DNA of 53,779 bases from Thiotrichaceae bacterium (lineage in GTDB: Bacteria > Pseudomonadota > Gammaproteobacteria > Thiotrichales > Thiotrichaceae). Below are positions 1 through 8,206 of the stretch, piece by piece (position 1 is the first letter of the stretch; each line of letters opens with the position of its first letter). The stretch is from NCBI GenBank assembly GCA_027083815.1, contig JALWMR010000099.1:1-53779 (forward strand), given 5' to 3'. Made by a program: the position numbers and the translations under genes. The notes under the pieces were generated by a model. The model had not been told where the DNA came from and did not search any database. It worked only from the letters and a program-made list of their open reading frames with translations.

Positions 1-197
1 CTTGCAAATTATCTTACCATATATTCTGCTTTATTTGTGTAATATCAGTAGCTTGTGTATTCTTCAGGGGCGACCTGCTAGGCTCGGCTTGCCCTTTTGC
101 CAGGAAGAACAGATTTACTCGCTGCCCAAATCTCGCGACAAACCTCTTTATATCAAGGTAAGCAGTTATTTTAAAGACCAATCAATGTGTTACGAAA

Positions 198-784
198 ATG
201 TATAAGACTAGTGGGTGTCCAATCTTTTGTATTCGGTTAACGAAGTCAGCGGTTAAACTTCATACGTTGTTAGACCTGCAAGGTAATATTTCGACCTTTA
301 TCCATATTTCGGATGGAAAGATGCATGATGTCAATGTACTTGATATTTTAATGCTGGAAACGGATGCTTTCTACATTATGGATAGTAGGGGGTATTTAGA
401 CATTGAAAGACTGCTTACTATCAGTCATGTAGGTGCTTTTTTGTTATCCATGAAAAGAAGAATACGCAATACAGGTGACAAAATTACCACACCATTACAC
501 CAAGACTTTTCTTCAAATGGATCAAGCAACACCTGAGGATAAAGTCATTTTTTGGTGTGATAGAAAAAGCGGTAAAAAATCAAATATGGATTGCTGTTTC
601 AGTTTATGTGCTAATTGCTATCATTAAAAAGTGTCTCAAGTAAGAATCTGGACTTTATACAATATTACAGATTTTAAGTCTTAGTCTATTTGAAAAAGCT
701 CCTTTTAATCAATTTTCTTACAAATATGGAAAACAGAACTGAAAATATTGATAATCCTAAGCAATTGAATTAATTCGATTTAAC
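198..784 (+). pseudogene. IS4-family (DDE) transposase remnant
   Basis: Reading frames between about 236 and 784 give pieces typical of the catalytic half of IS4-type transposases: a stretch with KLHTLLDLQGN, then FIHISDGKMHDVNVLD, then FYIMDSRGYLDIERL. A later piece in another frame reads IWIAVSVYVLIAIIKK, and then LQILSLSLFEKAPFNQ. The last piece, near 760-784, resembles the usual QLNLFDL ending. The pieces lie in different frames and are broken by stops at about 533 and 640, so the gene is dead. The N-terminal half is not recognisable; 1-197 holds no feature I can name. I found no clear terminal inverted repeats. The relic borders the radical SAM locus, which suggests an insertion-prone spot. 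I am fairly sure of the family and unsure of the exact limits. Confidence 0.7.
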
Positions 785-853
785 GTTGATACACTTGGCA
801 ATCTAGTGGTAATAAGCATTGCCCCTATACTATTTGATTTACGACTTGCCATA

Positions 854-2017
854 TTAAAGCGGAACTTGCAGGGTAGTGTTATTCGTGCGTACGATGCCGG
901 TTTTCATTATTTCTTGAGGAAAACCGCTTTCCATCAAGCGCGTTACAATATGTTCGATTACCGGGCGAAGTAAGCAACCGTGATCAGAAAGCATGTTCTG
1001 TTGCTCTGTTGTCGCATCCGCAACAAAAGACCCCGTACAGCTATCTTGGAAACGGCAATCTTTACAATAATGTGCAATTCGCGCCTCAGCCTCTATTGTT
1101 GTTTTTTCGCGCCCAGCCGAATCCAGAATTTCTTCAAAAGACTGTTTGAAAATATTACCGTATTGATAGCCAGCTTTATATGGTTCACTTATTCCCCATA
1201 TACTACCATCAATATCAACTAGATAGACTAGTTCTTCGGTATGTTTGTTATATGTGCCAGGAGTTACACCAGCAATATGTGCGATAGCATAATCCATATA
1301 TTCCCCAATAGGTTCGAGAGGGGTTGCACTTTCAGATTGAGCCCAACGATCAAATAATTGATTAAGCGTTCCAACGATCTCATTATAGGTCAATGCATGC
1401 TCAGACACCTGATCTTCAAATGAACTCATATAGAAGGGCAGAAACCGCATACTCATGCTTAACTTATCATAAAAATCATATATTTTAATCGCATGATCCA
1501 AGGTATTCCGAGCTAGTACGGCAATGGCTCCAACGTATATATCATTATCGACAAGTTTTTGCATATTGTTGATTACAGTGTTTGTACGTAATTTACCTTT
1601 TATATCAACACGTTGATCGCCGTATACATCAAACGATATACCCATATAATCGAATAGAGTTTTATCCTTGAGCATCTTAATATGGCGATTTGTCATGATG
1701 GTCATATTGGATTGCACACCATTTGTCACACAAGCAACATCACCGAGAATTTTTTTCTGCAGGTCCGCAATCTCTTCATAATAATCGACAGGAATCATAA
1801 ATGGCTCTCCCCCATGCCAAATAAAATCTAGCTGTTCGATTTCATGCTTGTAGGCATATTCTGCCATGTGTTGAAACATTGTTCCTATTTGTAACAAAGA
1901 CATACGTCTTTTCTCGGATAAATATTTGAATTCATAGCAATAACTGCAACGTAAATTACAATATTTAGACAGTTTTACTACAAGCTGAACAGCGTTTGGT
2001 CTAGCGGGAGATGCCAT
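854..2017 (-). CDS. Radical SAM/SPASM peptide maturase (putative RiPP-modifying enzyme)
   Basis: Predicted 387-residue radical SAM enzyme. The CxxxCxxC motif that holds the SAM-binding [4Fe-4S] cluster is seen at C20, C24 and C27 (CNLRCSYC), followed by the HGGEP motif common in anSME/SPASM-type maturases. The C-terminal part has a cysteine cluster (CKDCRFQDSC, then a later C in DHGC) as in SPASM domains that bind auxiliary clusters. Such enzymes cross-link or otherwise modify ribosomal peptides. I chose the ATG at 2017 because an AGGA sits about six bases upstream; a GTG at 2029 is an alternative. The gene follows a small precursor-like gene on the same strand by about 100 bases. Architecture is closest in my memory to the cyclophane-forming maturases (GrrM, XyeB, FxsB, YhhB types), but that subfamily call is inference. 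Confidence 0.85.
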   Translation of the reverse strand: MASPARPNAVQLVVKLSKYCNLRCSYCYEFKYLSEKRRMSLLQIGTMFQHMAEYAYKHEIEQLDFIWHGGEPFMIPVDYYEEIADLQKKILGDVACVTNGVQSNMTIMTNRHIKMLKDKTLFDYMGISFDVYGDQRVDIKGKLRTNTVINNMQKLVDNDIYVGAIAVLARNTLDHAIKIYDFYDKLSMSMRFLPFYMSSFEDQVSEHALTYNEIVGTLNQLFDRWAQSESATPLEPIGEYMDYAIAHIAGVTPGTYNKHTEELVYLVDIDGSIWGISEPYKAGYQYGNIFKQSFEEILDSAGREKTTIEAEARIAHYCKDCRFQDSCTGSFVADATTEQQNMLSDHGCLLRPVIEHIVTRLMESGFPQEIMKTGIVRTNNTTLQVPL

Positions 2018-2123
2018 TGATATCCTCACAATATATAAGCTATTACAGGTTTAATAAGCAAAGTTACAAAGAAAGTCAGATGCTGGCTGCCACTCCTAAC
2101 TTAAGCATAATAAACCAAGTCAT

Positions 2124-2525
2124 TTAACCCTTTTTGATATCATCGAAAACCTTACGAACACTAGTAACTCCAGAGAGAGACAGCTTTTTCTTCGGCTCAG
2201 TCTTTGGTGGTTTCGGTGCCGGTTCTGTCGACTGAACAAAGTCAGGGCCATTTGTCTGCACAAATGGTTTTGGTCCACCAATCCGAATAAAGGGTTTTGG
2301 GCCAATATTGATAAATACCTTCTTCTTTCCTTTGAGTTCATTAGATTTGTCATTTTTCAGAGATTGCATTGGTTCCAGTTTATTTGCAACCTGCTGCAAG
2401 GCGGAGGAACTCATCAAAAGAGCTGAATTGGTTGCATGCTCACCAGCAACTGTAGTTCCTGTTGCAATAACAGTGGAGAGCGTTGCTGTGGTGATACCTG
2501 TGATTATTGATTTCTTGTTCGACAT
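2124..2525 (-). CDS. Putative RiPP precursor with repeated F-x-[N/R/Q] motifs
   Basis: A 133-residue protein encoded just upstream of the radical SAM gene on the same strand. A GAGGGA ribosome-binding site precedes the ATG at 2525. Residues 1-30 have a lysine pair and a hydrophobic Ala/Thr/Ile-rich stretch ending in AGEHA, resembling a signal peptide or membrane-active leader. Residues 70-98 hold a degenerate repeat: VFINI, GPKPFIRI, GPKPFVQT and GPDFVQS. This puts Phe at 71, 79, 89 and 96, each followed by Ile or Val and then Asn, Arg or Gln. Three-residue aromatic-x-x sites next to a SPASM enzyme fit cyclophane ('triceptide') substrates, where the Phe ring is linked to the third residue. 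The tail is rich in Pro and Lys. No Cys or Trp is present. The precursor role is inference from composition and context. Confidence 0.65.
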   Translation of the reverse strand: MSNKKSIITGITTATLSTVIATGTTVAGEHATNSALLMSSSALQQVANKLEPMQSLKNDKSNELKGKKKVFINIGPKPFIRIGGPKPFVQTNGPDFVQSTEPAPKPPKTEPKKKLSLSGVTSVRKVFDDIKKG

Positions 2526-2942: not shown

Positions 2943-4487
2943 ATGAGCAAGCCTGAAGCTAATAACAAGCAGAAATTCAAACAAAACGACCTGATAAAGA
3001 GCATCGCTGATGCACTTCAGTTTATATCTTATTATCATGGTGAGGATTTTATCCGTGCCATGACGGATGCCTGGGAGCGGGAAGAATCACCTGCTGCCAA
3101 AGATGCAATTACCCAGATTTTAGTTAATTCGCGGATGGCGGCCGAAGGGCATCGTCCTCTTTGTCAGGATACCGGTATTGTAGTGGTGTTTTTAAAGGTC
3201 GGTATGGATGTGCAGTGGGATGATGCCACTTTGTCGCTTGAAGAGATGGTAAATGAAGGGGTGCGCCGCGCCTATACCAACCCGGATAATGTGCTGCGCG
3301 CCTCGGTGATGGCCGACCCATTAGGCAAGCGTATTAATACCAAGGATAATACACCGGCGGTGATTCATACCCAGATTGTGCCGGGCAACAAGATTGAAGT
3401 GCAGCTGGCGGCGAAAGGGGGCGGCTCTGAAAACAAGGCAAAAATGGTGATGCTTAACCCCAGTGATTCCCTGCTTGACTGGGTGGTGAAGACGGTTCCG
3501 ACCATGGGTGCGGGCTGGTGTCCGCCGGGTGTGCTGGGCATTGGCGTGGGAGGCACGGCAGAAAAGGCGGCGCTGTTGGCAAAAGAGTCATTAATGCAGC
3601 CGATTGATATTCACGAACTGCGTGAGCGTGACCCCAAAAATCGTCTTGAAGAGCTGCGTCTTGAAATAATGGAACGCGTTAATGACCTGGGTATCGGTGC
3701 GCAGGGCCTGGGGGGATTAACCACGGTGCTGGATGTCAAAATACTGGATTATCCAACTCATGCTGCCTCTTTGCCGGTTTGTATGATTCCTAATTGTGCC
3801 GCCACACGGCATGCTCATTTTACCCTGGATGGTTCTGGCCCTGCGCTGCTTGATCCGCCCGATTTAAGTGTCTGGCCGGATATCGCTTACCAGGCGGGGG
3901 AACAGGCGCGGCGGGTTAATCTGGATACAGTAACAAGAGAGGAAGTGCAAGACTGGCAGCCGGGCGAGGTTTTATTATTATCCGGTAAAATGCTCACCGG
4001 GCGTGATGCGGCGCATAAGCGAATCAAGGCGTTACTTGATAAGGGCGAGCCGCTTCCGGTTAGTTTAAGGGATCGCTTTATTTATTATGTTGGGCCGGTT
4101 GACCCGGTGGGCGATGAGGTGGTTGGTCCGGCTGGCCCGACCACGGCAACGCGAATGGATAAATTTACCGAGCAGATGCTGGCACAAACCGGCTTGCTTG
4201 GCATGATAGGTAAAGCGGAGCGCGGCCCAGCGGCAATCGAGGCAATAAAAAAACATAAAAGTGTTTATTTAATGGCAGTGGGAGGCGCGGCTTATCTGGT
4301 ATCAAAAGCGATTGTCGGTGCCAAAGTGCTGGCTTTTGAAGAAATGGGTATGGAAGCGATTTATGAGTTTGAAGTGAAAGATATGCCAGTGACGGTGGCG
4401 GTTGATTCAAATGGCGTATCGGTGCATCAAACGGGGCCACAAAAGTGGCAAAAGATAATTTTTGAGAAAACCAGCAGAGAGAAATAA
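2943..4487 (+). CDS. fumA: Fumarate hydratase, class I (Fe-S)
   Basis: Class I fumarase of 514 residues, interconverting fumarate and malate in the TCA cycle using an oxygen-labile [4Fe-4S] cluster. The N-terminal alpha-type domain shows PLCQDTGI (a cluster cysteine) and a long conserved block with GGGSENKAKM. A second block has PVCMIPNCAATRHAHF, giving further cysteines. The C-terminal beta-type domain contains LLLSGKMLTGRDAAHKR and YYVGPVDP. Both halves are fused as in E. coli FumA/FumB (about 548 residues). I start at the ATG at 2943 (MSKPEA). The frame stays open upstream into the dispersed repeat, which gives 20 residues of unlikely hydrophobic sequence. The convergent downstream gene starts five bases after the stop. 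The class is certain; the A versus B symbol is arbitrary. Confidence 0.93.
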   Translation: MSKPEANNKQKFKQNDLIKSIADALQFISYYHGEDFIRAMTDAWEREESPAAKDAITQILVNSRMAAEGHRPLCQDTGIVVVFLKVGMDVQWDDATLSLEEMVNEGVRRAYTNPDNVLRASVMADPLGKRINTKDNTPAVIHTQIVPGNKIEVQLAAKGGGSENKAKMVMLNPSDSLLDWVVKTVPTMGAGWCPPGVLGIGVGGTAEKAALLAKESLMQPIDIHELRERDPKNRLEELRLEIMERVNDLGIGAQGLGGLTTVLDVKILDYPTHAASLPVCMIPNCAATRHAHFTLDGSGPALLDPPDLSVWPDIAYQAGEQARRVNLDTVTREEVQDWQPGEVLLLSGKMLTGRDAAHKRIKALLDKGEPLPVSLRDRFIYYVGPVDPVGDEVVGPAGPTTATRMDKFTEQMLAQTGLLGMIGKAERGPAAIEAIKKHKSVYLMAVGGAAYLVSKAIVGAKVLAFEEMGMEAIYEFEVKDMPVTVAVDSNGVSVHQTGPQKWQKIIFEKTSREK

Positions 4488-6781: not shown

Positions 6782-8206
6782 TTATAAGCCTTTAAATACC
6801 ATTTCTGCCAGTCGTGTTCTGATATCTAACACGTTAAAGGCTATCATCATAAGAAGATAAGTGAATATTCCTGCGCTTAATTGTACTATTAGCCAGCCCC
6901 AGCCACGTAAATCTTTTAACCACCAAAGGCAGATGCCCATAACTAATGTTGAGAAAATAATTTTAATGAAATCAGCAATAGGGAAGGGTAATTTAAAACG
7001 TTTTCTACCCATAATACCGCTCAGAATACTGCCCAGGGTAAATGAACTCAAGGTTGCAATCGCTGCGCCTTTTAAGCCCATATCCGGGATTAGCCAATAA
7101 TTGAGAGCAAAGTTAATGGAGGCAACAACTACAGCGATTTTTGCGACGGCAATAACATAATGCCCCAGCTGAAAGGCCAGATCAAAATAGAAAGCCTGTA
7201 AGCCCATCATGAAAACGGCAGAGGTAATCCAGGGTAATAGAAATATAACGGATTTTTGATATTCCTCATCTATAAGTAGATAAACAATATCAGGCCCGAC
7301 AAAAATCAAGCCAACAACCGCTGGAACAGAGATGCCTAAAAGGAGGATTGCATAATGGCGGAAGTAATCCATCGCTGCCTTTTTTCCTTCTGTATCCAAT
7401 AACTTGATAACAACCGGATAAGCCGCCAAATTAAGTGCAGACATAATGAGCAAGATCGAATTACCCGATAAATCATAACCAACAGCATACAGGCCAGCAT
7501 GAGCACTATCTTGCAGCCAGGCCAGCATGTATCTGTCTGTGACTTTGGTGAGCTCTTCCAGCAGGGCGGCACTGGCGAAGGGTAAGCCATAGACAACCAG
7601 GCTTTTAAACAGAACCTTGTCATAAGCATCTTTTTTAAAAGGCAGCCAGGTTTTTTTAAAAACGAATAACGCCGGAACCAGTGTGCCGATGGTAACACCT
7701 GCTAATACGCCGGTCGCACCAAAACCCAGATAGGCGAGTAATGTGCCAGCCAGCAATGATAATACGGAATAACTTATGGTTAAATAAGCGTATAAATCCG
7801 GCTCAATCCTGGCAGTAAAAAGGTTCTGTGTAATGGTGAACAGTGCCAGGGCTTGAAGTAATAAAAAAGAGCTGGTGATCCAGATTGCTTGAGGCTTTCC
7901 CCAAAAATAGATAACAGCAATTAAGGTTATTCCCAATAAAATAGCTGAGATTCTTAAATAGCTTATAGCCAAAGTGCTAGTAAATGATAGAGAGCTATAT
8001 TTTTTATTGGCCCAAAAACGCAGTGTGCCCGCTGGAAGCCAGTTATAAAGGACATTATGCAACAGGGCTGTGCCAGTGATAATAAGGGTGTAAATACCGT
8101 ATTCACCAGGGCTTAGCAAATGAGTGTATAAACTCAAAGCTGCAAAAGCCATCAATCCCGGTATGACCTTGGCTAGTATATAAATAATACTGTGACGTAG
8201 AAGCAT
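6782..8206 (-). CDS. Polysaccharide flippase (Wzx/MATE-like)
   Basis: A 474-residue, very hydrophobic protein with about twelve to fourteen predicted membrane segments. The N-terminal pattern (ILAKVIPGLMAFAALSLY, then LLSPGEYGIYTLI) is that of oligosaccharide flippases in the polysaccharide biosynthesis family. Such proteins move lipid-linked repeat units across the inner membrane. Its ATG overlaps the TGA of the upstream ligase gene by one base (TGATG), so the two are translationally coupled. It is the last gene of a leftward set with the ligase and acyltransferase. No glycosyltransferases lie next to it in this window, so the sugar structure cannot be guessed. Confidence 0.87.
   Translation of the reverse strand: MLLRHSIIYILAKVIPGLMAFAALSLYTHLLSPGEYGIYTLIITGTALLHNVLYNWLPAGTLRFWANKKYSSLSFTSTLAISYLRISAILLGITLIAVIYFWGKPQAIWITSSFLLLQALALFTITQNLFTARIEPDLYAYLTISYSVLSLLAGTLLAYLGFGATGVLAGVTIGTLVPALFVFKKTWLPFKKDAYDKVLFKSLVVYGLPFASAALLEELTKVTDRYMLAWLQDSAHAGLYAVGYDLSGNSILLIMSALNLAAYPVVIKLLDTEGKKAAMDYFRHYAILLLGISVPAVVGLIFVGPDIVYLLIDEEYQKSVIFLLPWITSAVFMMGLQAFYFDLAFQLGHYVIAVAKIAVVVASINFALNYWLIPDMGLKGAAIATLSSFTLGSILSGIMGRKRFKLPFPIADFIKIIFSTLVMGICLWWLKDLRGWGWLIVQLSAGIFTYLLMMIAFNVLDIRTRLAEMVFKGL

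Follow-up and report, generated by a model that had tools for sequence, protein, structure and literature searches.

The window, the whole stretch of 53,779 nucleotides that was analysed, is one complete contig from the draft genome (2.78 Mb) of a Thiotrichaceae bacterium and carries, near one contig end, two genes on the minus strand: a precursor gene (2124..2525) coding for a protein of 133 amino acids without Cys or Trp and, just downstream of it, a gene (854..2017) for a radical SAM/SPASM-like peptide maturase of 387 amino acids. Both ORFs were found where the earlier note had placed a small protein followed by a radical SAM gene. The precursor starts with an ATG at 2525, which is preceded at a distance of 8 nt by a Shine-Dalgarno sequence (AGAGGG, 2534-2539). 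The maturase ORF was listed from a GTG at 2029; an ATG at 2017 has a GAGG 6 nt upstream and is probably the true start, the GTG being an unlikely one, and if the gene begins at this ATG, both genes have good ribosome-binding sites. Promoter and terminator scans gave sites no more numerous than in shuffled sequences. The observation that no transporter or protease is adjacent holds for what can be seen nearby, but the contig ends 853 bases past the maturase gene, which makes it a weak one. An IS4-type transposase remnant is located just past the maturase gene at this contig end (198-536, plus strand); its residues 13-91 match IS4 transposases with 52-64% identity among the matches listed, and its nearest annotated relatives are IS4 transposases.

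The precursor (MSNKKSIITGITTATLSTVIATGTTVAGEHA...KKKVFINIGPKPFIRIGGPKPFVQTNGPDFVQSTEPAPKPPKTEPKKK...KKG) had no match in Pfam or NCBIfam. By eye, its N-terminus (MSNKKSIITGITTATLSTVIATGTTVAG, residues 1-28, 2442..2525, minus strand) resembles a signal peptide, with a Lys-rich start and a hydrophobic stretch, and the protein closes with a Pro/Lys-rich C-terminal follower (residues 99-133, 2127..2231, minus strand). Between the two lie, on the same strand, the sites F71-I-N (2307..2315), F79-I-R in GPKPFIR (2283..2291), F88-V-Q in GPKPFVQ (2256..2264) and F96-V-Q in GPDFVQ (2232..2240). All four of the regularly spaced Phe sites reported from the first reading are real, the third being F88-V-Q and not F89. 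In the part of the precursor after residue 30, which the shuffle test covered, four [FWY][VIA][NRQK] sites were present against 0.25 expected, and none of 20,000 shuffles reached four. The units GPKPFIR, GPKPFVQ and GPDFVQ differ in synonymous codons (GGC/GGA, CCA/CCT, CCC/CCA), which rules out a recent DNA duplication as the origin of the repeats and indicates that the protein pattern was kept while the DNA drifted. Sactipeptide or ranthipeptide precursors, which need a Cys as thioether donor, and darobactin-type precursors, which need two Trp joined by an ether and also a Lys-Trp link (PMC9055067), were rejected as candidates, the protein containing neither residue.

The maturase matched Pfam Radical_SAM (PF04055) with 44.5 bits, and Pfam SPASM remained below its cut-off (17.6 vs 21.5 bits). 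Among the NCBIfam models it scored highest with DynA (145.6 bits, cut-off 450), followed by sulfatase maturase (130, cut-off 349), DarE (102, cut-off 650), AmcB (101, cut-off 425), GrrM (84, cut-off 310), YhhB (80, cut-off 445), FxsB (71, cut-off 370) and XyeB (40, cut-off 450), and no curated NCBIfam model, the named triceptide families included, attained its cut-off. DynA was the top-scoring family model for the maturase and the three relatives scanned (121-158 bits). The GrrM, XyeB, FxsB and YhhB profile sets, which the earlier note had proposed for comparison, were all outscored by DynA, DarE and AmcB; since every curated cut-off tested was missed, we do not claim formal membership in a named family. 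When the window enzyme and its relatives were aligned with four anSME-like and two annotated GrrM/OscB enzymes, the Cys residues of the SAM-cluster motif CxxxCxxC (CNLRCSYC, C24/C28/C31, 1937..1960, minus strand) were invariant in all aligned enzymes, and the Aux II Cys columns (C322, C325, C331 and C352, numbered from GTG, 974..1066, minus strand) were invariant as well. The window maturase and its relatives contain these two sets only and lack all Aux I Cys; in the anSME-like enzymes all three sets (SAM cluster, Aux I, Aux II) are present, and the two GrrM/OscB enzymes are without a full Aux I set. DarE was reported to have a total of two clusters (PMC9055067). The label "SPASM-type" is appropriate, with the limitation that Cys ligands are confined to the Aux II half and that the Pfam score is sub-threshold, and the combination of a CxxxCxxC radical SAM domain with a SPASM-type auxiliary cluster domain is present as in triceptide systems. 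An anaerobic sulfatase maturase, for which both auxiliary sets are required, was rejected as an assignment. An AlphaFold2 model of the maturase (pLDDT 81.5) had as its nearest solved folds anSME (Z 29.8, 340 residues) and then ChlB (Z 28.0, 337 residues), a radical SAM enzyme that was solved with the leader of its own precursor (PDB 9gm3, 9gmc) and is 19% identical to the window maturase.

Related maturases were encoded in Methylobacterium terricola (L007, 41% identity in the alignment), a second genome of the Methylobacterium genus group (L011, 44%), the IMG/VR contig IMGVR_UViG_3300035000_000007 (L012, 31%), another IMG/VR contig (L021, 29%) and a further genome with the most distant member (L020, 28%). 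Immediately upstream of its maturase gene, L007 has an ORF whose last residues are KPFARESGPSWVQR (sites F-A-R and GPSWVQ). The corresponding ORF of L011 includes YYFARESGPSWVNSPRK (sites F-A-R and GPSWVN), and that of L012 carries IKGPSWVKQM, preceded by a Nif11 leader that has a Gly-Gly site. The precursors of the window and of these three loci have the signature G-P-x-[W/F]-V-[Q/N/K] in common, represented in the window by GPKPFIR, GPKPFVQ and GPDFVQ; site 4 is the counterpart of GPSWVQ, GPSWVN and GPSWVK, and, as regards site 2, F-A-R precedes the GPSWV site in L007 and L011. The upstream ORF of L021 contains WAN and FVQ, neither of them in a GP frame, and the upstream ORFs of L020 hold no aromatic-x-x site of this kind. 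N-termini similar to that of the window precursor were present in the small proteins of L007, L011 and L021, not in the Nif11-led one of L012; a follower is found in L011 too (PRKIDKLNN...), and the L007 precursor stops at WVQR. Among all 986 ORFs of at least 60 amino acids from every locus collected, the strict pattern GPx(1-2)[FW][VIA][NRQK], which was written after the precursors had been seen, occurred in seven, four of them being the precursors of the window, L007, L011 and L012. Outside the window, aromatic-x-[NRQ] sites numbered 10 against 4.0 expected across four loci (P 0.002), with a P of 0.05 for L007 and L011 alone; L012 has no more than one site of this looser motif. Maturase homologues could have been situated beside unrelated substrates; small proteins with the same type of site accompany all three closest ones, the fourth (L021) fits loosely and the fifth (L020) does not. 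The F-x-x sites are likewise conserved among the homologous small proteins, with Trp partly in place of Phe, and the window, L007, L011 and L012 resemble triceptide systems in having, next to the maturase gene, a gene for a small precursor whose aromatic-x-x sites are conserved.

The maturase family is scattered, rare and patchy. No close homologue of the maturase was detected in 63 genomes of the window's order (E <= 1e-30) or in a 369-genome sample of its class (best E 1e-23), and neither of these sets contained a precursor homologue; a sample of 319 genomes of the phylum returned only an already known family member, and the phage and plasmid collections yielded no radical SAM enzymes other than distant ones. 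Matches in Cupriavidus and Paraburkholderia looked like other families and were rejected. The rare and patchy distribution, together with the IS4-type remnant beside the window copy, suggests that this copy likely arrived horizontally. In L012 the whole precursor-maturase-oxygenase operon is situated on a contig filed as viral, and near-duplicate small ORFs on either side of it (~3869-4210 and 7099-7443) may be the mark of a mobile or duplicated stretch. Another IMG/VR contig (L022) carries a radical SAM gene (113-1255, plus strand), whose product has Cys of the Aux I type, followed by an 88-residue ORF (1291-1557, plus strand) with W-D-R, W-N-Q and W-G-Q, which resembles another aromatic-x-[Arg/Gln] precursor.

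In both L011 and L012 the maturase gene is translationally coupled to a following oxygenase gene, the stop codon of the one and the start codon of the other sharing ATGA. This oxygenase, which has no Pfam family, matched MicC, an "alpha-ketoglutarate-dependent non-heme iron oxygenase" (PDB 9vkm), with E 7e-32; the L011 and L012 proteins are 35-37% identical to each other and have HLDSWD and DPGEAY..PT..LxHD in common. By homology, MicC-related oxygenases are encoded on the plus strand in L011 (2622-3473), L012 (6152-7033), L031 (3593-4441) and L034 (3650-4438). Homologues adjoin an annotated grrM on a Streptomyces plasmid and on a Nostoc plasmid, where a nearby small ORF holds WDN, WND and WGN. 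The MicC-related genes thus adjoin cyclophane-type radical SAM maturases in Methylobacterium, the viral-collection contig, Nostoc and Streptomyces, and those that are annotated are labelled "hypothetical protein". Their coupling to the L011 and L012 maturases and their position beside grrM in Nostoc and Streptomyces suggest that, in several lineages, cyclophane-type maturases occur together with oxygenases of this group. The homologue that forms the third gene of the L011 and L012 operons was not found in the genomes of the window, L007 and L020, in a search run without a positive control. A MicC-like gene on a plasmid of Streptomyces sp. NBC_01454 (L032, 3851-4774, plus strand) has no annotated radical SAM gene in the 8.7 kb covered, in a gene table that may be incomplete. 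The structure model of the oxygenase was too low in confidence (pLDDT 35.8) for use.

Taken as a whole, the pair very probably constitutes a real RiPP system. From the observed gene pairing, the site signature beside homologous maturases, the enzyme class, the predicted fold and the Cys pattern we infer the type of bond, and our main reading, to which we assign a probability of roughly two in three, is that the locus specifies a triceptide-type (three-residue cyclophane) RiPP with up to four rings on the Phe-[Ile/Val]-[Asn/Arg/Gln] sites. The proposal that the two genes are a radical SAM/RiPP pair whose aromatic-x-polar sites become cyclophanes, possibly in a new family, thereby gains support from the conserved sites beside homologous maturases, the cross-link itself being putative. 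Known triceptide links run from an aromatic residue at position i (Trp, Phe, Tyr or His) to the beta-carbon at i+2, the acceptor being Asn, Asp, Arg, Ser or Ala; XncB couples Trp with Arg or Asn, MscB couples Phe with Ser, YhhB couples Tyr or His with Arg, and OscB uses Asn or Asp (PMC11002830). The window sites fit this i to i+2 pattern, and Gln and Lys acceptors are absent from the published list. The MicC homologues coupled to the L011 and L012 maturases and found beside grrM also speak for the triceptide reading; the absence of curated matches, of listed Gln or Lys acceptors, of sites in L020 and of the oxygenase in the window and L007 speaks against it. Mixed third residues, which together with the GPKPF frame had at first appeared unfamiliar, are thus known already, Asn and Arg among them, but no curated model matches the precursor, and the family differs from the described systems in its GP-x-[W/F]-V-[Q/N/K] frame and in Gln or Lys as third residue. 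Like XncB, GrrM/OscB, FxsB/MscB and YhhB, the window maturase is a radical SAM/SPASM enzyme whose gene adjoins that of a small precursor in which aromatic-x-polar sites recur; with the two GrrM/OscB enzymes it shares the Aux II-only Cys pattern, although it is only 16-18% identical to them. By description, the locus can also be likened to the YNR/HNR pathway (Cluster 41, PMC9062424), which combines a maturase with an Fe/2-oxoglutarate oxidase and repeated aromatic-x-Arg sites, but with Tyr/His instead of Phe/Trp and without a GP frame. In the proposed mechanism, the maturase would bind the N-terminal part of the precursor, cleave SAM and abstract a beta-carbon hydrogen of the third residue in each Phe site, and the resulting carbon radical would close onto the Phe ring to give a three-residue cyclophane with a loss of 2 Da per site; perhaps as many as four rings would be formed in the cytosol before export, which may proceed through the signal-like N-terminus.

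We consider both the maturase subfamily, which is rare, and the precursor type to be new in the sense that they are without a curated model; they may have been listed earlier in the triceptide literature. More tentatively, and at slightly less than even odds, the members could form a rare distinct subfamily that makes cyclophanes on GP-framed Phe/Trp-Val-[Gln/Asn/Lys/Arg], accepts Gln and Lys, exchanges a signal for a Nif11 leader and has an optional MicC-like second step. The Gln and Lys acceptors and the swap of a signal-like for a Nif11 leader would be new. The signal-like N-termini in the window, L007, L011 and L021 as opposed to the Nif11 leader in L012 suggest, as far as sequences can tell, that the modification is constant and the way of export is not.

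A RiPP pair with another bond at the sites is an unlikely alternative: the enzyme might form an aryl ether there, attach the middle Ile/Val, close a larger or fused ring like those of dynobactin and the daropeptides, or make a change free of cross-links. DynA is the best family model, DarE and AmcB score too, and DarE forms ether as well as C-C links (PMC9055067). However, the DynA and DarE scores are about one third or less of the cut-offs (450 and 650), darobactin links involve Trp, which the window precursor lacks, and its repeated sites are isolated, 8-9 residues apart with Gly-Pro between them, an arrangement that fits separate small rings; in addition, homologues of the partner oxygenase adjoin GrrM. 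An anaerobic sulfatase maturase, or a maturase of another protein, with an upstream gene that encodes an unrelated secreted Pro-rich protein, is a very improbable reading: sulfatase maturase is the second-best family model and anSME the nearest solved fold, but the score of 130 bits compares with a cut-off of 349, the Aux I Cys of the anSME-like enzymes compared are all gone, and three further genomes or contigs likewise have an ORF with the signature ahead of the maturase gene.

Compatible with the triceptide reading, and a substantial though not the favoured possibility, is that the modified protein remains intact, either secreted or in the envelope, instead of being processed to a small diffusible peptide. 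The signal-like N-terminus, the long follower, the spread of the sites over 28 residues and the lack of a visible protease or transporter are consistent with this fate, whereas the nearby contig end leaves room for a missing partner and the Nif11-type leader with its Gly-Gly site in L012 is of the type used by cut peptides.

Triceptide-type enzymes form strained aromatic rings that are difficult to obtain by chemical synthesis. If the triceptide reading is true, the ring chemistry itself would be of a known kind, and the known substrate range would be widened (Gln, Lys) by a subfamily acting on a short GP-framed motif, which is repeated up to four times per protein and stands behind two unrelated leader types. 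The locus would provide a simple two-gene system for tests, and oxygenases annotated as hypothetical proteins would become linked to cyclophane maturases in several lineages.
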